Shown here: positions 46,895-55,216 of the stretch, piece after piece | How positions within the stretch are numbered: position 1 is the first letter of the stretch | Layout: every line of letters starts with the position of its first letter | Assembly: GCA_012270125.1 (NCBI GenBank) | Contig: JAAXIY010000002.1 | Location: forward strand, 1 to 64,000 | Direction: 5' to 3' | DNA from: Paracoccaceae bacterium | Lineage (GTDB): Bacteria; Pseudomonadota; Alphaproteobacteria; Rhodobacterales; Rhodobacteraceae | DNA length: 64,000 nt | Notes under the pieces: generated by a model | Seen by the model: the letters and a program-made list of their open reading frames with translations, nothing else | Told to the model about the DNA's origin: nothing | The model's database searches: none | Program-made: the position numbers and the translations under genes

Positions 46895-47654
46895 TACAAT
46901 AAAAAAGGCAGCAATAGAGGCAAGTAAAATTGCGCTCAGTTATTCTGATAAAAATTTTAAGACCTGGGATAAAGATGCTGGTGCTGGTCCCGTTACTGAA
47001 GTTGATATAGAAATCGATAATTTCTTAAGAACATTCTTACTAAAATGTGAGCCTGACTATGGATGGTTAAGTGAGGAGACTGAAGACAATACTGCACGGC
47101 TTGGTAAATCAAAAGTTTTTATAGTTGATCCTATAGATGGCACTCGCAGTTTTATTGCAGGAGACAAAACTTGGGCACATTCAATAGCGGTAGCGGAAAA
47201 AGGTAAACCCATTGCGGCAGTCGTGTATTTGCCCAGAATGGATTTGCTTTATACTGCTGAAATTGGAAACGGCGCTTTTTTAAATGGTGAAAAAATCACT
47301 GTATCAGAAGTCTGTGATTTGATGGATGCTAAGATTTTAGCAAAAAAATCGGTGTTTGAAAAAGAGAATTGGAAAAATGGACAGTCAAACATTTTAAGGC
47401 AACGCTATCGCCCATCTTTAGCCTATAGGTTGGCTCTTGTTGCCGAAGGAAGTTTTGATGCAATGATCACACTAGGTAAATCATGGGAATGGGATATCTG
47501 CGCTGGTCACCTTCTAGTTACTGAAGCTGGCGGTAGTGTTACCACCAGCCATGGAAGTGACATAAATTATAATTCCTCAACTGGAAGTTCCCAAGGGATT
47601 ATTGCTGGAAATGCAATAGTTAGAGAGGCAATTTCCGCTCAGTTAAATCTTTAA
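46881..47654 (+). CDS. Inositol-monophosphatase family protein, CysQ-like
   Basis: A 257-residue protein of the IMPase/CysQ superfamily, starting with TTG at 46881 inside the end of pmbA (14-base overlap). Metal-site motifs are EETEDN (residues about 71-76), DPIDGTRSFIAGDKTWAHSIAV (about 91-112) and WEWDICAGHLLVTEAGG (near 200). It hydrolyses a sugar or nucleotide phosphate, either 3'(2'),5'-bisphosphate nucleotide or inositol phosphate; I cannot decide which. It is coupled to pmbA and converges on chrR with a 12-base overlap. Confidence 0.85.
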   Translation: MQDLDTIKKAAIEASKIALSYSDKNFKTWDKDAGAGPVTEVDIEIDNFLRTFLLKCEPDYGWLSEETEDNTARLGKSKVFIVDPIDGTRSFIAGDKTWAHSIAVAEKGKPIAAVVYLPRMDLLYTAEIGNGAFLNGEKITVSEVCDLMDAKILAKKSVFEKENWKNGQSNILRQRYRPSLAYRLALVAEGSFDAMITLGKSWEWDICAGHLLVTEAGGSVTTSHGSDINYNSSTGSSQGIIAGNAIVREAISAQLNL

Positions 47655-48290
47655 AAAAGGTTGAGCGATCTTATGAATTAATTTGTTGAACTTGAGTGGT
47701 GCATCAGTCACCGCTAAGCATATACAATCTTCATCATCCGATGCAACAGGAGTATGGTGGGTATGCCCATCAGCAAATTCAACGTCGCCCGGCCCGAAAT
47801 AATCAAACTCGTCCTTGAAGGCTCCTTTGAGCACTAGTGTTAATTCTCTGCCTTTGTGGCTATGCTCAGGAACAGCTGTGCCAGCTGGAATGTAAAGCAA
47901 ACGGGCTGAAACTTTCTCGGAATTGACGAGAATTTTCTGTTTTACACCCATGCCTATAGGTCGCCAGTCGATATCGTCCAAATCACATCCAACATAGTCT
48001 GCTAAAGGCTCTGGTAGTGATTTTTGTTTCGGTCTTTCGGGCGCTTGTTCAGGGGTTTGGTCGATTAAAGCCAATGTCTTCAAAAATGCATCCGAACCGA
48101 TTTCATTTGGTTCTAAATTTTCAATAATTGCTCCACCCATTGCATCTAAGCTTTCTAGCTCAGCTCTACATTGGTCACACATTGAAATATGAGTGGCTAT
48201 TGCCAATGCAAAACCTTCTTCAAGCTGTCCTGCAGAATAGGCCATTAATAATTTTTTAGATAAGTGATGTTTTATGTCGTGTGTTTTCAT
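47643..48290 (-). CDS. chrR: ChrR family anti-sigma factor (zinc cupin)
   Basis: A 215-residue anti-sigma factor of the RpoE-ChrR type. The N-terminal zinc site that holds RpoE is present (H8/H9, H34, C38 and C41 in ATHISMCDQCRAEL). The C-terminal cupin domain has PEHSHKGRELTLVLKGAF, with its own metal-binding His and Glu set. In Rhodobacter, singlet oxygen inactivates ChrR through the cupin domain, freeing RpoE. The gene is 10 bases after rpoE, so the two are one operon. Confidence 0.95.
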   Translation of the reverse strand: MKTHDIKHHLSKKLLMAYSAGQLEEGFALAIATHISMCDQCRAELESLDAMGGAIIENLEPNEIGSDAFLKTLALIDQTPEQAPERPKQKSLPEPLADYVGCDLDDIDWRPIGMGVKQKILVNSEKVSARLLYIPAGTAVPEHSHKGRELTLVLKGAFKDEFDYFGPGDVEFADGHTHHTPVASDDEDCICLAVTDAPLKFNKLIHKIAQPFLKI

Positions 48291-48300
48291 ATTTCTCTCT

Positions 48301-48942
48301 CTACATCATTGCGTGGCGCAGTTTTTCAAGGGCTAATCTTATGCGCGATTTAATAGTTCCTAATGGTAGTCCAGTAATTTCGGCGATTTCACTGTGTGAA
48401 AGTTCACCAAGGTAAGCCTTCTCCACCAAAACCCGTTGTTTCTCAGGAAGCTCCCCGAGTGCTGTGACCAAACGTTCTGTCTCCTGCTGCAATTCTACCA
48501 CGGCTTCTTGATCAGGTTCATAGTCTTGCTCTGGATACAATTGTTCGGGCTCAGGTCTATTTTGCTTCCTAATTGCATCAATTTTTTTATTTCTTGCTAT
48601 AGTAAAAATCCAAGTTGAGGCACTGGCCCTGGAGGGATCAAACAAGTGAGCTTTACGCCATACAGTTGCCAAAACTTCTTGAGTACATTCTTCTGCCATT
48701 TGAGGGTCAGCGCCTGACTTCATAAGAAAGGCTTTTACCCTGGGGGCAAAGTGACTAAAAATTTCTTCGAATGCAGAGACATCTTTATTTATCTCGACCT
48801 TTCGAATTAACTCTGCCCAAACGTTTATATTTTTATTTTTCAATGACACGGTCTTTGTGTTTTCAACGTTACCAGAATCAATACCACACACCCTAGGCAT
48901 TATCGAGTGGTTCGCGGCGCGTATTTTTGTCTCAAGTAACAT
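48301..48942 (-). CDS. rpoE: ECF sigma factor RpoE (ECF11, singlet-oxygen response)
   Basis: Up to 213 residues with region 2 (FAPRVKAFLMKSGADPQMAEECTQEVLATVWRKAHLFDPSRASASTWIFTIARNKKIDAIR) and region 4 (LPEKQRVLVEKAYLGELSHSEIAEITGLPLGTIKSRIRLALEKLRHAM). The text closely follows Rhodobacter RpoE. The start is uncertain. The candidate -10 at 48951-48957 leaves almost no leader for the ATG at 48942, so the ATG at 48900 or the GTG at 48849 (10 residues before WAEL) may be the true start. It is followed by chrR. Confidence 0.93.
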   Translation of the reverse strand: MLLETKIRAANHSIMPRVCGIDSGNVENTKTVSLKNKNINVWAELIRKVEINKDVSAFEEIFSHFAPRVKAFLMKSGADPQMAEECTQEVLATVWRKAHLFDPSRASASTWIFTIARNKKIDAIRKQNRPEPEQLYPEQDYEPDQEAVVELQQETERLVTALGELPEKQRVLVEKAYLGELSHSEIAEITGLPLGTIKSRIRLALEKLRHAMM

Positions 48943-48950
48943 AACAATCT

Positions 48951-48979
48951 TTATTCGCTCTTAATGACAATTTGGATCA
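48951..48979 (-). promoter_or_regulatory. Candidate RpoE (ECF11) promoter of rpoE-chrR
   Basis: Minus strand: -35 TGATCC (48979-48974), 16 bases, then CGAATAA (48957-48951). The ECF11 consensus, as I recall it, is TGATCC-N16-CGTA; here the -35 is exact and the -10 differs by one base. It would give autoregulation. Confidence 0.6.
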
Positions 48980-48993
48980 ATTTTAAATACTTT

Positions 48994-49019
48994 TCATCCG
49001 GAACAGCCTAACGAACGTA
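48994..49019 (+). promoter_or_regulatory. Candidate RpoE (ECF11) promoter of the FAD-oxidoreductase operon
   Basis: Plus strand: TCATCC (48994-48999), 16 bases, then CGTA (49016-49019), 22 bases before the ATG at 49042. One mismatch in the -35 and an exact -10 compared with the ECF11 consensus. It is divergent from, and has the same 16-base spacing as, the rpoE promoter. Confidence 0.6.
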
Positions 49020-49041
49020 GTACTGTAAAATAGGAATAAAT

Positions 49042-50340
49042 ATGACTTTTCAAAAAATGCCCATTTCGCCCAAAAATATTGCAGTAATCGGGGGCGGAAT
49101 TTCCGGCCTAGGTGCAGCCCACGCGCTTTCAGATACATACAACGTAACGCTGTTTGAAACGGAAAATCGCTTGGGTGGGCATGCTCGTACGATTTTAGCA
49201 GGTAAAAATGGTGATCAGCCTGTGGATACTGGCTTCATTGTATTTAATTATGCAAATTATCCCGAACTTTCTAAATTATTTTCTGATCTTAATGTTCCTG
49301 TCGTAAAAAGTGACATGAGTTTTGGAGCTTCCGTTCGTGGTGGAAAAATCGAGTATGCATTAAGAAATTTCGATGCAATATTTGCGCAAAGGAAGAACGT
49401 TTTTAATCCAAAATTCATCAAAATGGTCTGGGATATTAACAGATTTAACACTCTAGGCTTAACGGTTGCAGATGATAAGTCCATCACAATTAGACAATTT
49501 TTGGAACGACTAAAAACGGGCGATTGGTTTAGAGACTACTATTTGTTGCCGCTTTCCGGTGCAATATGGTCAACGCCCACGGAAAAAATCTTAGAATTTC
49601 CAGCATATGCAATGATGCAATTTTTTAAAAACCATGCCTTGCTTAGTCGAAGTGGGCAGCATCAATGGTATACCGTGGAAGGTGGTTCACGAGAATATGT
49701 TTCACGGCTGGAAAATGTTTTATTGAAAAAACAAGTGGATATAAGACTTTCTACTCCTGTAGCGTCTGTTTCGCGCCACGAAACTGGCGTGGCAATTAAA
49801 ACGTATCGCGATGAAGTGCAAATGTTTGATGAGGTAGTATTCGCAACACACTCTGACGACACATTGGCACTTTTGACTGATGCATCCCCGACAGAGCGGC
49901 AAAACCTTGGTTGTATAAAATATCAAGATAATGAAGTCGTCTTACATTCGGATGTATCTTTGATGCCTAAGCTTCACAAGTGCTGGGCGAGTTGGGTCTA
50001 TACTGAACGAAAAGATAAAAGCAGCGAAAAAATTGATTTAACCTATTGGATGAATTCTTTACAGCCAATTCCTTTGGATGATCCAATGTTTGTCACGCTT
50101 AATTCTACCAGAAATATTGAACACAGCCAGATATTTGATCAAGTGACTATGCGCCATCCTGTTTATGATTTAGACGTTTTAGAAGCGCAAAAAGAGATTG
50201 CTAAAACTAATGGTCAAAATAGAACTTGGTTTTCTGGTGCTTGGGTAAAAAACGGTTTTCATGAGGATGGATTAACTTCTGGGCTAGATGTTGCGCGAAA
50301 AATTATTTCTAAAGAAATATTGCCAATAGCAGCGGAATGA
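49042..50340 (+). CDS. FAD-dependent amine-oxidase-like oxidoreductase, possible UfaD-type fatty acid desaturase
   Basis: A 432-residue protein with an N-terminal FAD-binding Rossmann loop IAVIGGGISGLGAAHALS and the acidic end of strand two (VTLFETENRLGGHART). The amine-oxidase-like family pattern follows (VDTGFIVFNYANYPEL, WYTVEGGSREYVSRLE, FSGAWVKNGFHEDGLTSGLDVA). It heads the operon whose promoter matches RpoE. The gene order and content match the Rhodobacter RSP_1091-1087 group; RSP_1091 is, from memory, the UfaD enzyme of furan fatty acid synthesis. If so, it acts on methylated fatty acyl chains under singlet-oxygen stress. A generic amine oxidase is the alternative. Confidence 0.85.
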   Translation: MTFQKMPISPKNIAVIGGGISGLGAAHALSDTYNVTLFETENRLGGHARTILAGKNGDQPVDTGFIVFNYANYPELSKLFSDLNVPVVKSDMSFGASVRGGKIEYALRNFDAIFAQRKNVFNPKFIKMVWDINRFNTLGLTVADDKSITIRQFLERLKTGDWFRDYYLLPLSGAIWSTPTEKILEFPAYAMMQFFKNHALLSRSGQHQWYTVEGGSREYVSRLENVLLKKQVDIRLSTPVASVSRHETGVAIKTYRDEVQMFDEVVFATHSDDTLALLTDASPTERQNLGCIKYQDNEVVLHSDVSLMPKLHKCWASWVYTERKDKSSEKIDLTYWMNSLQPIPLDDPMFVTLNSTRNIEHSQIFDQVTMRHPVYDLDVLEAQKEIAKTNGQNRTWFSGAWVKNGFHEDGLTSGLDVARKIISKEILPIAAE

Positions 50341-51092
50341 CTGAGATAAAGATCATAAGTGGGCAAACATGGCATGGGCGTCGTGGTCGGGTGGAAAATG
50401 ACTTCAAATACAGTATTGATTACTTACTTTTTGATCCTGAGAAACTGGAAATGTCTCCATGGCTTTTGTCCAAAAAAGGTGGATTTTTTTATGGGATAAA
50501 CCCCTTGGATTATGGTGGTCTCAATGACCTTGGTGCTCCGAAGAAGTGGGTGCTTGAAGTGTTAAAAGCGCGAAAAATAACTTGCGTCTCCAAAGTTCTT
50601 CTGCTCGCACAACCAAGAATATTGGGCCATATTTTTAACCCAGTAAGTTTTTGGTTATGTTTCGATGAAGCAGACAAGTTAGTTGTTGTAGTAGCAGAAG
50701 TATCCAATACTTTTGGTGATCGACATTCGTATTTATGCTGTAACGATGATTTAAAACCAATCAGACCAGAGCATCGCCTTAAAGCCACAAAAATTTTTCA
50801 TGTTTCGCCATTTCAGCCAATCGATGGGAATTATGAGTTTAGATTTGATATAGATTTAGATAAAAAAATTGGTATTTGGATTGATTTGCAAATGCCTGGA
50901 GGTGGCGTATTAGCCAATTTAACAGGCCGCATTAGAAAACTAAGAAACCGAGATATTTTGTGGTCCTGTATCCGCAGACCTTTAGGTTCACGTCGCGCTC
51001 TTGCTTTAATACATTGGCAGGCATTGAAACTTTATTTAAAAGGAGCCAGATACCGCAAGCGCCCTTCTCCACCGGATATTGAGGTTTCATAA
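50337..51092 (+). CDS. DUF1365 family protein
   Basis: A 251-residue protein of the DUF1365 family: HGRRGRVENDFKYSIDYLLFDPEKL, NPLDYGGLNDLG, LLLAQPRILGHIFNPVSFWLCFD, VVAEVSNTFGDRHSYLC and KIFHVSPFQPIDGNYEFRFD. The family occurs next to cyclopropane-type fatty acid synthases and the flavoprotein above, and so is linked to fatty acid modification, with no assigned reaction. The start overlaps the oxidoreductase stop by four bases. Confidence 0.9.
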   Translation: MTEIKIISGQTWHGRRGRVENDFKYSIDYLLFDPEKLEMSPWLLSKKGGFFYGINPLDYGGLNDLGAPKKWVLEVLKARKITCVSKVLLLAQPRILGHIFNPVSFWLCFDEADKLVVVVAEVSNTFGDRHSYLCCNDDLKPIRPEHRLKATKIFHVSPFQPIDGNYEFRFDIDLDKKIGIWIDLQMPGGGVLANLTGRIRKLRNRDILWSCIRRPLGSRRALALIHWQALKLYLKGARYRKRPSPPDIEVS

Positions 51093-52297
51093 TGCCATGG
51101 CGCTACGCGCTTTTTTCTTGCGCCCTGGGAATGGCAGGTTTGCCTATTTATATACATGCTCCAAAATTTTTCGTAGATCAGTATGAAATTAGCTTAGTGG
51201 CTTTAGGGTTAGCGTTATTAATTTTACGGTCAATTGACTTTTTCCAAGACCCTTTTTTAGGTCGTCTAGCTGCATCTACACAACAGAATGGTTCCATTCC
51301 CCTATGGGCTGCGTCTGTCGCCATGTGTGTTGGAATGACATTGCTCTTTGCAATCCCGGCTATTGGGTTTCCTATTTTATGGTTCTGTACATCGCTAGTT
51401 ATTCTTTTCTCAGGTTTTAGTTTTGCATACATAAAAATCTACGCACTTGGCGTTGAAGCATATGGTGTGGACGGACAAATTAAGATAGCCAAGTGGAGAG
51501 AGGGAGGGAATTTAATTGGTATCTGTTTGGCTGCATTAGCTCCTACAATGCTTTCGATAAATGGATCAAATGGATATGAGAACTTCGCATATTTATTCTG
51601 CTGTTTTATTCTTGTTGCTACGTTTTTAGTTTCTAGTGACTTCGTTCAAAATTTTTCTACAGTCGCAATGAAGACAACTTCATTATTTCCAAAAGATACA
51701 CATCTCCGGGCGCTTCTATTTTTAGTTTTTCTAAATGCAATGCCAGTAGCGGTGACTTCAACACTCTTTTTATTTTATGTTGATAACGTTCTTGGCTTGG
51801 AAGCTATGGCTGGGCCACTACTGATACTATTTTTTCTTTCAGCGGCATTCTCTGCTCCATTTTGGACTAAAATTGCCGAACATTATGGTCCATTACTTAT
51901 TTTAAGATTCAGCATGTTTCTTAGCATAATCAGTTTTTTTTGGGCATATACTTTAACTACTGGTGACATCATTTCTTTTTCAGTCATTTGTCTTGCAACG
52001 GGCCTATCTTTGGGTGCTGATATGACTCTTTTACCAGCCGTTTACGCTAAGAGCCTAATAAAAACAAAAAATGATGCTAATACGGGATTTGGGATTTGGA
52101 ATTTTTCAAATAAGATTGCTTTAGCTGTAACTGCAGGCCTTCTCCTTCCAATAATGGAATTTGTGGGCTTTGAAACTCAAGCCATGAATTCTACTTTAAG
52201 TTTGGAAGTGCTATCAATTTCCTATGCTTTAGTACCATGTGCCCTTAAGATCCTGGCGCTTCTTTGGCTACAGAACTTGATTTTGCGAGATAAATAG
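51092..52297 (+). CDS. MFS/GPH-type transporter
   Basis: A 401-residue multi-pass membrane protein with about 10-12 helices. The GPH (glycoside-pentoside-hexuronide:cation symporter) look is seen in RYALFSCALGMAGLPIYIHAPKFFVDQYEISLVALGLALLILRSIDFFQDPFLGRLA. The substrate is unknown; within an operon for membrane-lipid modification it may move a lipid or sugar head group. The start overlaps the preceding stop (TAATG). Confidence 0.85.
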   Translation: MPWRYALFSCALGMAGLPIYIHAPKFFVDQYEISLVALGLALLILRSIDFFQDPFLGRLAASTQQNGSIPLWAASVAMCVGMTLLFAIPAIGFPILWFCTSLVILFSGFSFAYIKIYALGVEAYGVDGQIKIAKWREGGNLIGICLAALAPTMLSINGSNGYENFAYLFCCFILVATFLVSSDFVQNFSTVAMKTTSLFPKDTHLRALLFLVFLNAMPVAVTSTLFLFYVDNVLGLEAMAGPLLILFFLSAAFSAPFWTKIAEHYGPLLILRFSMFLSIISFFWAYTLTTGDIISFSVICLATGLSLGADMTLLPAVYAKSLIKTKNDANTGFGIWNFSNKIALAVTAGLLLPIMEFVGFETQAMNSTLSLEVLSISYALVPCALKILALLWLQNLILRDK

Positions 52298-52299
52298 TA

Positions 52300-53028
52300 A
52301 TGAAAGAATGGTCAAATAAACGCTATTGGATTGTGGGTGCCTCTGAAGGCCTGGGGCTTGCTTTGGCTAAAAGAATGTCCAACGCTGGTGCGTCTCTGGT
52401 TCTTACGGCTAGAAATGAAAAGCGTTTAAAAGAAATTGCGTTATCCTTACCAAATCAGGCCGAGGTTTTACCCCTAGATATCACTGATCATACAGCCCTG
52501 AAGCGGTCCGCAAAAACATTAAAAGATTTAGATGGATTAGTCTTTCTGGCAGGTGCATATTGGCCGATGCCAGCGCAGGAATGGGATATTGAAAAACTTA
52601 CTAAGATGATTAACATAAATTTAGTTGGTGCATTGAATGTGCTGGATATCATCTTGCCTGAATTTATTTCAAGAGACAAAGGTCATTTAGTTTTTACGGG
52701 CAGTTTGGCCGGTTACCGTGGATTGCCAGGGGCACTTGGGTACGGATCTTCTAAGGCGGCAATCGCAAACTTAAGTGAAACTTTGTATTACGATTTAAGG
52801 AAGACTTCTATAAAAGTTCAATTGATAAACCCAGGTTTTATAAAAACTAGGTTAACTGATAAAAATGATTTTAAAATGCCTCAAATAATGTCGCCTGAAA
52901 AAGCGGCAGAAAAAATGTTTACTAGAATGTGCAAAAATAGGTTTTCTTCCAGTTTTCCAGCACCCTTTTCTTGGCTGTTCAGGATATCTCGAATACTTCC
53001 AGACTCAATTTACTTTAGATTATTTTGA
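52300..53028 (+). CDS. SDR family oxidoreductase
   Basis: A 242-residue SDR with the cofactor loop IVGASEGLGLALA, the catalytic Ser of FTGSLAGYRGLPGAL and the YxxxK pair in GYGSSKAAIANLS. The C-terminus is hydrophobic and may sit on the membrane (FPAPFSWLFRISRILPDSIYFRLF). It is the last gene of the RpoE-type operon, two bases after the transporter. It matches the position of the short-chain dehydrogenase in the Rhodobacter RSP_1087 group. Its end overlaps the convergent gene by nine bases. Confidence 0.88.
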   Translation: MKEWSNKRYWIVGASEGLGLALAKRMSNAGASLVLTARNEKRLKEIALSLPNQAEVLPLDITDHTALKRSAKTLKDLDGLVFLAGAYWPMPAQEWDIEKLTKMININLVGALNVLDIILPEFISRDKGHLVFTGSLAGYRGLPGALGYGSSKAAIANLSETLYYDLRKTSIKVQLINPGFIKTRLTDKNDFKMPQIMSPEKAAEKMFTRMCKNRFSSSFPAPFSWLFRISRILPDSIYFRLF

Positions 53029-54156
53029 AACTATTTCTAAATGTTGAGCCAATCCTTTTATTTTAGTTAACCATTCATTAACGAGAGCCATATCTGATGG
53101 GGCAGCACTGACACCAGAATCGATGTTGCCTTTTGCAACGGCTTCTACGGCAAATGAAACTGGTAAAGAAACCAATCTCGCCATTGCGCTGGACGATGAG
53201 TCGCCAAAGGCGTCTAATACAAATGTTTTATGCCATTTTGTTTTATTTTCGTGTGCGGCCTTCAACGAAACTACCAAAACAACACGATCTGCTTCATTTT
53301 CTTCATACCCATTTTCTAGCCAAAGTTTATCTGACATTTCTTTTAGTCTTTCGTCGCCTTTCGGGCCTTTTAAATTATCGATTTCAGAAAAAACTTCTGA
53401 CCAAGCACTCTCCCATCCCTTAAGCCTTAATGTGCCTCTAACAAATTCTCTCACCCGCCAATTTTGATCAAAATGGTACTGCTTAATGAATGGTAGAGAG
53501 TCTCTGTTTGGATACACTTCGAATTCTTCAGGTGAAGGCAAAGGTGCAATATAATTTGATATAGCATTCCACGGTCTTTGGGTTTCAAACTCTTTGAAGT
53601 TTTTAATTGAGCGTGATGGAGATTTTAGAGCTTTTAAAACACCTAATGGTGACCAACTAAACTTGTAGCAAAAACTATTTTTGATTTTTGGTATGCCCCC
53701 ACAGTAAGAAATAAAAGAGATTTCATTCTCATCATCTTGTTCCTTTGAATTTCGATAATCTTCAATCAATGTATGGGCCATCAAATGATCAATTCCTGGG
53801 TCTAAACCAACTTCATTAACCAGACATACGTTAGCTTTTACTGCTTCTTTGTGCAGGGCGCGCATCTCAGGTGAAATATATGAAGAACTAACGAAATGAC
53901 TTTGTTTCTCTAAAGATAAATTTGCTAAGGGAACATGCCAATCCGCCGGCAGCATTGACACGACGATATCACCCTTTCCTAGGCAGTTTTTCAATTCATG
54001 AATATCAAATTCCTTGATTGATTTAGTAATATCACCAACTGCGGAAATTGCTTTCTCTATAGTTCTATTCCAGACAACAATATCGTGACCGTCAATTATT
54101 AACCTACGTAAGCCAGGAATTGCAGATAATCCAGTTCCACACCAATGAATTGTCAT
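53020..54156 (-). CDS. Saccharopine dehydrogenase, glutamate-forming (Lys9/SDH type)
   Basis: A 378-residue protein with a Rossmann start (IHWCGTGLSAIPGLRRLI, lacking a clean GxGxxG) and the Lys9-type NEVGLDPGIDHLMAHTLIED, YCGGIPKIKNSFCYKFSWSPLGVLKAL, FVRGTLRLKGWESAWSEVF. It would oxidise saccharopine to glutamate and aminoadipate semialdehyde. The gene lies one base after the Lys1-type gene on the same strand. In the related Silicibacter enzyme, LKR and SDH have been reported as one fused protein; here they are separate. Confidence 0.85.
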   Translation of the reverse strand: MTIHWCGTGLSAIPGLRRLIIDGHDIVVWNRTIEKAISAVGDITKSIKEFDIHELKNCLGKGDIVVSMLPADWHVPLANLSLEKQSHFVSSSYISPEMRALHKEAVKANVCLVNEVGLDPGIDHLMAHTLIEDYRNSKEQDDENEISFISYCGGIPKIKNSFCYKFSWSPLGVLKALKSPSRSIKNFKEFETQRPWNAISNYIAPLPSPEEFEVYPNRDSLPFIKQYHFDQNWRVREFVRGTLRLKGWESAWSEVFSEIDNLKGPKGDERLKEMSDKLWLENGYEENEADRVVLVVSLKAAHENKTKWHKTFVLDAFGDSSSSAMARLVSLPVSFAVEAVAKGNIDSGVSAAPSDMALVNEWLTKIKGLAQHLEIVSK

Positions 54157-54157
54157 G

Positions 54158-55216
54158 TCACACCTCTTTCAAATATTTTATAAAAGTTTTTTCAGCTCGA
54201 TCCCATACATCTGCTGCAGTACTATTAAGACCTAATAACAAGGGTATCAGTTGCCTTGAAAAGTCAATGGAACTTTCATACGGCAACAAGGATGGCAAGT
54301 TATCAATAGCCATCACGTCTAATTCATTGGAGTCACTCACTCGAATGACTGGATGCTCCCAATTTGTTGCAGAACTATAAATTGGGATCGGATTGAAACT
54401 GCTGTCTGGATCGCAAGAAATATCTCCAATAACTCTCAATTTTCGATCTTCAATGAGATGGGTATTATTAACGAAAACCGGAGCGCCAGGTTTTGCCAAA
54501 ATACAGTTGAGAAATACTTCATGCATAAGAATTTCAGGAAACGGTCCTCCATGTTTCGTTTCCTCAATGTCCCATTTTGTGACGTCGAGGCCTAAAGACT
54601 GACAAAAATCAATGGCTCCTTGCCCGACTCGGCCTAGTGCTCCAACAACTAGAATTTTTGGATTATTGTTTTCGGTAGAAAAAAGATTTTTTCTAATATT
54701 ATCAATCATTTCTTCTTGATTATCAAAAACACTTATTGGTCCACAAATACCGCTTTCGTTTTTTTGGCTTGCATAAGCTTTTATCGATATAGCGGCACCA
54801 GCAAAACCTGCCCAATATCCGAATGCAGCCAAGCGCCGTCCCTCTGCATCGGTTAGATATTCTAGATCATATAATATACCCTTACCTGCTTTAAATTTTT
54901 TCAAAAAGTTCTTTCCGGCAGATTGGCCCTTAAAGGCATGACCAAACATGATGTGTTTATGCTCAAGTTTTTCTATATTTTCTGGTAGTTCCTTTAAGCC
55001 AAGTATAATTGCCTCTTTTGGTGCACTTTGCCAGGAATGTTGCTTACTGATAACACATCCAACTTTAGAATAGCTTTCTGTAGGGATTATTCTGTCGGTG
55101 CTTTCTTCGACCGTAACTTTGATACCTGCATTAACTAATTTAGCTGCATCTTCAGGGCTCAATCCAACTCTTTTTTCGTTTGCCCTTTGCTCAGCTCTAA
55201 CCCACAAGTGAACCAT
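54158..55216 (-). CDS. Saccharopine dehydrogenase, lysine-forming (Lys1/LKR type)
   Basis: A 352-residue protein of the alanine dehydrogenase/PNT-like branch: WVRAEQRANEKRVGLSPEDAAKLVNAGIKVTVEES, FGHAFKGQSAGKNFLKKF, LVVGALGRVGQGAIDFCQSLG, and FLNCILAKPGAPVFVNN. It matches Lys1-type saccharopine dehydrogenase. In bacterial lysine breakdown it acts as lysine-2-oxoglutarate reductase, making saccharopine from lysine. With the next gene it converts lysine to aminoadipate semialdehyde plus glutamate. The semialdehyde dehydrogenase is not in the window. It begins 10 bases after the histidine phosphatase gene. Confidence 0.87.
   Translation of the reverse strand: MVHLWVRAEQRANEKRVGLSPEDAAKLVNAGIKVTVEESTDRIIPTESYSKVGCVISKQHSWQSAPKEAIILGLKELPENIEKLEHKHIMFGHAFKGQSAGKNFLKKFKAGKGILYDLEYLTDAEGRRLAAFGYWAGFAGAAISIKAYASQKNESGICGPISVFDNQEEMIDNIRKNLFSTENNNPKILVVGALGRVGQGAIDFCQSLGLDVTKWDIEETKHGGPFPEILMHEVFLNCILAKPGAPVFVNNTHLIEDRKLRVIGDISCDPDSSFNPIPIYSSATNWEHPVIRVSDSNELDVMAIDNLPSLLPYESSIDFSRQLIPLLLGLNSTAADVWDRAEKTFIKYLKEV

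Follow-up and report, generated by a model that had tools for sequence, protein, structure and literature searches.

Two questions are raised by the 99-base region that separates rpoE-chrR from a divergent four-gene operon: whether one sigma factor drives both sides, and where the RpoE protein begins. We studied them in a stretch of 64,000 nucleotides, here called the window, and in the corresponding loci of relatives. A divergent pair of ECF11-type promoters, combined with an essentially leaderless rpoE whose product has an extension of about 38 residues, is in our judgement very probably the joint explanation of what we observe (Table 1). The first element of this explanation, the divergent ECF11 switch, is of a kind already known from Rhodobacter, and is supported here.

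The genes fit such a system. R. sphaeroides RpoE (PDB 2q1z) is the top PDB match to the rpoE product (228.9 bits, E=4.9e-67, residues 40-212), and in a search of the genome this gene was the sole match at E<=1e-5. The chrR gene adjoins it downstream on the same strand, which is the arrangement expected of an ECF11 RpoE-ChrR system. Its product scores 213.6 bits against TIGR02451 (cut-off 124.5), also matches Cupin_7, and retains the zinc motifs HX3CX2C at residue 34 and HXHX3E at residue 143. On the plus strand, the four genes ufaD-ufaO-MFS-SDR are tightly packed from 49042 to 53028, and a domain search identifies the ufaD product as an amine-oxidase-type flavoenzyme. In R. sphaeroides, RSP_1091 and RSP_1090 act in furan-fatty-acid synthesis as UfaD and UfaO (PMC7380195), and the rpoE-chrR/RSP_1091-1087 locus of that organism has the same gene order as the window, with ufaD and ufaO first (PMC3818230, PMC7380195). 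The window differs in that a counterpart of RSP_1088 (186 aa in R. sphaeroides) is missing between the transporter and the SDR gene. By eye, two neighbouring minus-strand genes that look saccharopine-dehydrogenase-type (53020-55216) abut the SDR gene.

Table 1. Features of the rpoE-ufaD locus, in window coordinates
Feature	Position	Strand	Basis
chrR, zinc anti-sigma factor with cupin domain	47643..48290	-	TIGR02451, Cupin_7, zinc motifs
rpoE, ECF11-type sigma factor, 213 aa	48301..48942	-	phmmer against 2q1z/2z2s, E=4.9e-67
N-terminal RpoE extension of 38 codons (MLLETKIR...), before conserved sigma domain	48829..48942	-	genus comparison
predicted leaderless rpoE start codon ATG	48940..48942	-	in frame, open in relatives
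predicted transcription start of rpoE, with 0-3 nt leader	48942..48945	-	inferred from ATG offset in relatives, A peak on ufaD side, SigT
rpoE promoter -10, CGAA	48954..48957	-	reads on as CGAATAA to 48951
rpoE promoter -35, TGATCC	48974..48979	-	sequence; GATCC-N16 kept in relatives
A/T-rich spacer between both -35 elements, 14 bp	48980..48993	.	possible shared UP element
ufaD operon promoter -35, TCATCC	48994..48999	+	conserved in divergent loci
ufaD operon promoter -10, CGTA	49016..49019	+	sequence; conserved in divergent loci
AGGA, Shine-Dalgarno-like site ahead of ufaD ATG 49042	49032..49035	+	sequence
ufaD-like FAD desaturase, RSP_1091 type	49042..50340	+	Amino_oxidase / NAD_binding_8; position and order as RSP_1091
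ufaO-like DUF1365 protein, RSP_1090 type	50337..51092	+	PF07103, E=2e-62
MFS/GPH-type transporter, RSP_1089 type	51092..52297	+	PF13347, E=1.2e-41
short-chain dehydrogenase (SDR), RSP_1087 type	52300..53028	+	PF00106, E=6.3e-40

Both operons are preceded by RpoE-dependent promoters in R. sphaeroides (PMC3818230), and the rpoEchrR and furan-fatty-acid genes belong to the core RpoE regulon (PMC6852236). The RpoE promoter was published as TGATCC(N15)GCGTA (PMC5036791), and the two divergent promoters of the R. sphaeroides locus have both the motif and the N16 spacing seen here (PMC3818230, PMC5036791). The first-pass annotation of the window had called two hexamer pairs with identical N16 spacing, and both are indeed present on the strands and at the sites it proposed, with 16 nt between -35 and -10 elements for rpoE and ufaD alike. 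The rpoE copy corresponds to TGATCC-N16-CGTA with one change in the -10 element (CGAA), which is fixed in the genus, and the ufaD-ufaO operon has its RpoE promoter beside rpoE-chrR as in the known regulon. These two -10 and -35 variants, CGAA for rpoE and TCATCC for ufaD, also distinguish the window from R. sphaeroides.

The pattern TSATCC-N16-CGWA has two perfect matches in the whole window, namely these two promoters. Under a first-order Markov model with the composition of the window, one match on a given strand of a 99-base stretch has p ~2e-4, and a pair of matches on both strands occurred in 0 of 400,000 simulated stretches of that length. The simulation, the uniqueness of the pair in 64 kb and its recurrence in relatives rule out that the two motifs arose by chance. 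That the elements are nevertheless fortuitous or serve another regulator, and that ordinary sigma-70 promoters do the work instead, is an explanation to which we assign almost no probability. It can draw on one weak sigma-70-like site (48964-48991, plus strand), but the number of such sites equals the shuffle mean (1.0) and is thus at chance level, so this sole candidate was dropped; moreover, the window has no perfect matches other than the ECF11 pairs, and these are conserved across the family. A search of Rfam returned no RNA family or riboswitch match in the region up to E=1.

We gathered rpoE loci from the genus itself, the family Rhodobacteraceae, the class and beyond, with approximately 170 relatives in the main comparison. 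The DNA of the R. sphaeroides locus was not found among the 397 family genomes or the plasmid collection. All 13 genus members having the locus carry GATCC-N16-CGAA before rpoE, together with a divergent ufaD. Among the other Rhodobacteraceae, 146 of 155 loci have a strong rpoE motif, which is nearly always GATCC-N16-CGTA, and GATCC with N16 spacing is found in 142 of those 146. The ufaD gene is divergent from rpoE in 140 of the 155 (153/168 when genus members are included), and T[GCA]ATC[CT]-N16-CGTA precedes it in 110 of 111 divergent loci, the -35 element being TCATCC, TGATCC, TAATCC or a form with a final T. Loss of the hexamer pairs in relatives would have spoken against the proposed promoters, and the intergenic comparison points the other way, with both pairs conserved. 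Their agreement with the published R. sphaeroides motif (PMC5036791) supports the proposal that they are ECF11-type promoters. The further proposals, namely autoregulation of rpoE and a single RpoE-ChrR switch for both sides, are likewise supported by the gene identities, the conserved hexamers and the published motif.

Two features of the promoter region could have regulatory consequences. The spacer between the -35 elements is 12-14 bp long and A/T-rich among the genus members listed, and has a median of 23 bp in relatives (14 in the window). Its GC content in 90 other relatives is 40%, versus 61% for the rpoE core, and it is A/T-rich even in GC-rich genomes. The spacer may act as a UP element for both promoters, or the polymerases of the two sides may interfere with each other. 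Separately, the genus shows a lineage-specific asymmetry in which the rpoE -10 element is CGAA but that of the ufaD side is CGTA. The CGAA form may lower self-activation relative to activation of the lipid operon.

The -10 element of rpoE lies close to the annotated start codon, and the first-pass annotation took this as a sign that the far-upstream start is wrong. The relatives argue against that conclusion. Counting from the C of the -10 element, an in-frame ATG occurs at an offset of exactly 12 in 138 of the 155 Rhodobacteraceae loci with an rpoE promoter. The base before this ATG is a pyrimidine in every one of the 138 (C in 72, T in 66), and still in 129/129 once near-identical sequences are removed. 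When one sequence is retained per 70%-identity cluster, the ATG is at 12 in 24 of 28, with a pyrimidine before all of these. Between the ATG and the conserved domain, stops interrupt the rpoE frame in 2 of 136 genomes but the other two frames in 116 and 104. With the ATG locked at 12 nt, in frame and in an open frame, the close -10 element marks a leaderless gene and not a wrong start.

The ufaD side serves as a control. Its start offsets are not fixed but spread, mostly over 26-49, and SD-like sites precede 78 ufaD starts in relatives. At offsets 12-14 past the ufaD -10 element, A is over-represented, most strongly at 13 (93 of 133). In Caulobacter, a SigT motif of the same geometry sits at -34 relative to a mapped start site (PMC4287350), from which we calculate a position of -13 for the -10 C. 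The A peak and the SigT geometry therefore place the transcription start at offset 12-13, on or beside the A with which the rpoE start codon begins. The constant pyrimidine in front of it would fit selection that holds initiation on this A.

The translation signals are also those of a leaderless mRNA. No rpoE start candidate in the window is preceded by a Shine-Dalgarno match of 4 bases or more, and the match is at most 4 bases in 148 of 149 relatives, such that an AUG start is combined with the lack of a Shine-Dalgarno site. Structure is weakest over the opening 40 nt of rpoE, at a mean of -5.6 kcal/mol versus -7.1 to -13.1. From the fixed 12-nt ATG, the pyrimidine at -1, the open frame and the variable ufaD offset, we predict that rpoE is leaderless. 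This is a strong prediction: the first base of the mRNA is almost certainly the A of the ATG, although the 5′ end of the transcript is itself a predicted position. In the window, the rpoE ATG (48942) is 15 nt past the -10 C, and the subclade of the window has its ATG at offset 14-15 instead of 12. The mRNA may thus have a leader of 2-3 nt in the window and in the genomes closest to it.

A similarly close ATG is seen in other alphaproteobacterial families, in which 35 of 62 motif-bearing loci have the ATG at offsets 11-15, most commonly 13. By contrast, in the genomes sampled outside the class, the start codon is mostly 36-50 nt past the -10 C, so that the mRNA has a leader. Shewanella rpoE2-chrR and Pseudomonas syringae PSPTO_1043, both gammaproteobacterial ECF11 systems, likewise have an autoregulatory TGATCC-N16-CGTA promoter (PMC4336711, PMC5507510).

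A start at this ATG gives RpoE an N-terminus that is predicted to be longer than that of R. sphaeroides RpoE. Each of the 13 genus members has an extension of 38 codons. Its opening 24 nt (window 48919-48942, ATGTTACTTGAGACAAAAATACGC) hardly vary among the seven closest genomes, even at synonymous sites, and past its first codons the extension is weakly constrained. A coding test of the extension within the genus is weak, with synonymous sites evolving just mildly faster, and we regard the openness of the frame across the family as decisive in its place. Within the family, the second rpoE codon tends to be TTN, with leucine encoded as TTG or TTA rather than CTG.

The R. sphaeroides RpoE in PDB has 184 aa and is thus shorter than the extended form predicted here. 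Its length implies a start approximately 9 codons before window residue 39, and could suggest that translation in the window begins, as the first-pass annotation implied, at an inner codon (GTG 48849 or ATG 48900), the upstream frame being a transcribed 5′ UTR downstream of a correctly assigned promoter pair. Inner starts with an SD-like site of at least 5 bases are mildly enriched in relatives (27/147, versus 20/242 for out-of-frame controls) and cluster 5-11 codons upstream of the conserved domain, close to where the 184-aa protein begins; they occur in a minority of relatives. However, a UTR would not preserve the rpoE frame free of stops in 134 of 136 genomes when the other frames are rich in them, nor would it place an in-frame ATG at offset 12 in 138 of 155. 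In addition, SD matches of the inner candidates in the window do not exceed 3 bases. We therefore consider a purely inner start improbable.

A variant in which both starts are used is also unlikely, if somewhat less so. Here, the self-induced leaderless transcript would give a long RpoE, and another transcript or an inner start would give a short one, in the manner of sigma-R and sigma-R′. Streptomyces sigR/sigR′ similarly has an autoregulated promoter from which, under oxidative stress, a sigma factor with an N-terminal extension is made, and SigR′ is an unstable isoform made from that promoter only (PMC4921905, PMC5472188). The SD-led inner starts in a minority of relatives would agree with such an arrangement, as would an extension that is poorly constrained yet of fixed length within the genus, and two RpoE isoforms are possible in some species. 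Against this, the region searched contains no second promoter beyond chance level, and the window has no SD-led inner start. The Streptomyces SigR′ promoter is an upstream one beside a constitutive promoter, whereas we see one promoter here and predict a leaderless mRNA. The likeness to sigR′ is functional, and we claim no membership.

We also scanned for further RpoE targets, using pattern matching only. The strict motif with spacers of 15-17 has 13 matches in the genome, versus 3 for a reversed control, and several of the matches fall within genes and were excluded as promoters. In 16 genomes of the genus, 110 occurrences of the motif compare with 30 of the reversed control. As expected for the RpoE regulon, TGATCC-N16-CGTA occurs upstream of an rpoH-type sigma gene (contig C61:10284-10309), whose product scores 433.6 bits with PRK07500 (cut-off 315). 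On the basis of this model, we take the RpoH to be the RpoHII paralogue, whose gene belongs to the R. sphaeroides-type core RpoE regulon. Strict motifs also precede genes for a 42-residue cysteine-containing protein (MSCTCGRSPTGKCVGWHK..., contig C38:42235-42260) and a TPR-containing protein (contig C24:8659-8684), both of which have an SD-like site. From their motifs, these two genes are candidate new members of the RpoE regulon. A photolyase gene adjoins a CMAS/UfaM-like gene (contig C46:2326-4935), as in the R. sphaeroides regulon, but no ECF11 motif was found upstream of this phrA-ufaM pair.

The following circuit is consistent with these data. ChrR would be inactivated, as it is by singlet oxygen in R. 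sphaeroides, and RpoE thereby freed. Free RpoE would transcribe its own rpoE-chrR operon and, in the opposite direction, the furan-fatty-acid operon (ufaD, ufaO, transporter and SDR). On the rpoE side, RNA polymerase would start at ATG 48942 or within 3 nt of it to make an essentially leaderless mRNA, by which RpoE would gain its extension of about 38 residues; ufaD and chrR would use ordinary leaders or Shine-Dalgarno sites. In this scheme we infer the exact start, the leaderless translation, the inducer and the coupling of both sides. Singlet oxygen would be the inducer by analogy with R. sphaeroides, and it is a plausible stress given that the genome encodes two Photo_RC reaction-centre genes. 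Because RSP_1090 is required for full activation of RpoE by singlet oxygen in R. sphaeroides (PMC3818230), the promoter pair would form a feedback loop.

A broader proposal is that the promoter and start codon of the self-activated rpoE are fused in most Rhodobacteraceae and many other Alphaproteobacteria, transcription beginning on the A of the ATG. Positive feedback would then give a leaderless mRNA for an extended RpoE whose translation, and perhaps degradation, would differ from those of any short form, comparably to sigma-R′. We put this forward tentatively, as a speculative idea. We found no description of a leaderless rpoE, in R. sphaeroides or elsewhere, in the literature searched, which excluded most subscription journals and the original promoter papers; given these gaps, the absence of reports is only weak evidence of novelty.

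The divergent switch extends a circuit known from Rhodobacter to a marine phototrophic lineage. The new part is the leaderless rpoE start, which predicts a corrected RpoE N-terminus in many genomes. The sigma and anti-sigma factors, although encoded on one mRNA, would be initiated by different translation mechanisms. The leaderless start also makes it possible to test cleanly whether the RpoE:ChrR balance under stress is determined by this mode of translation.
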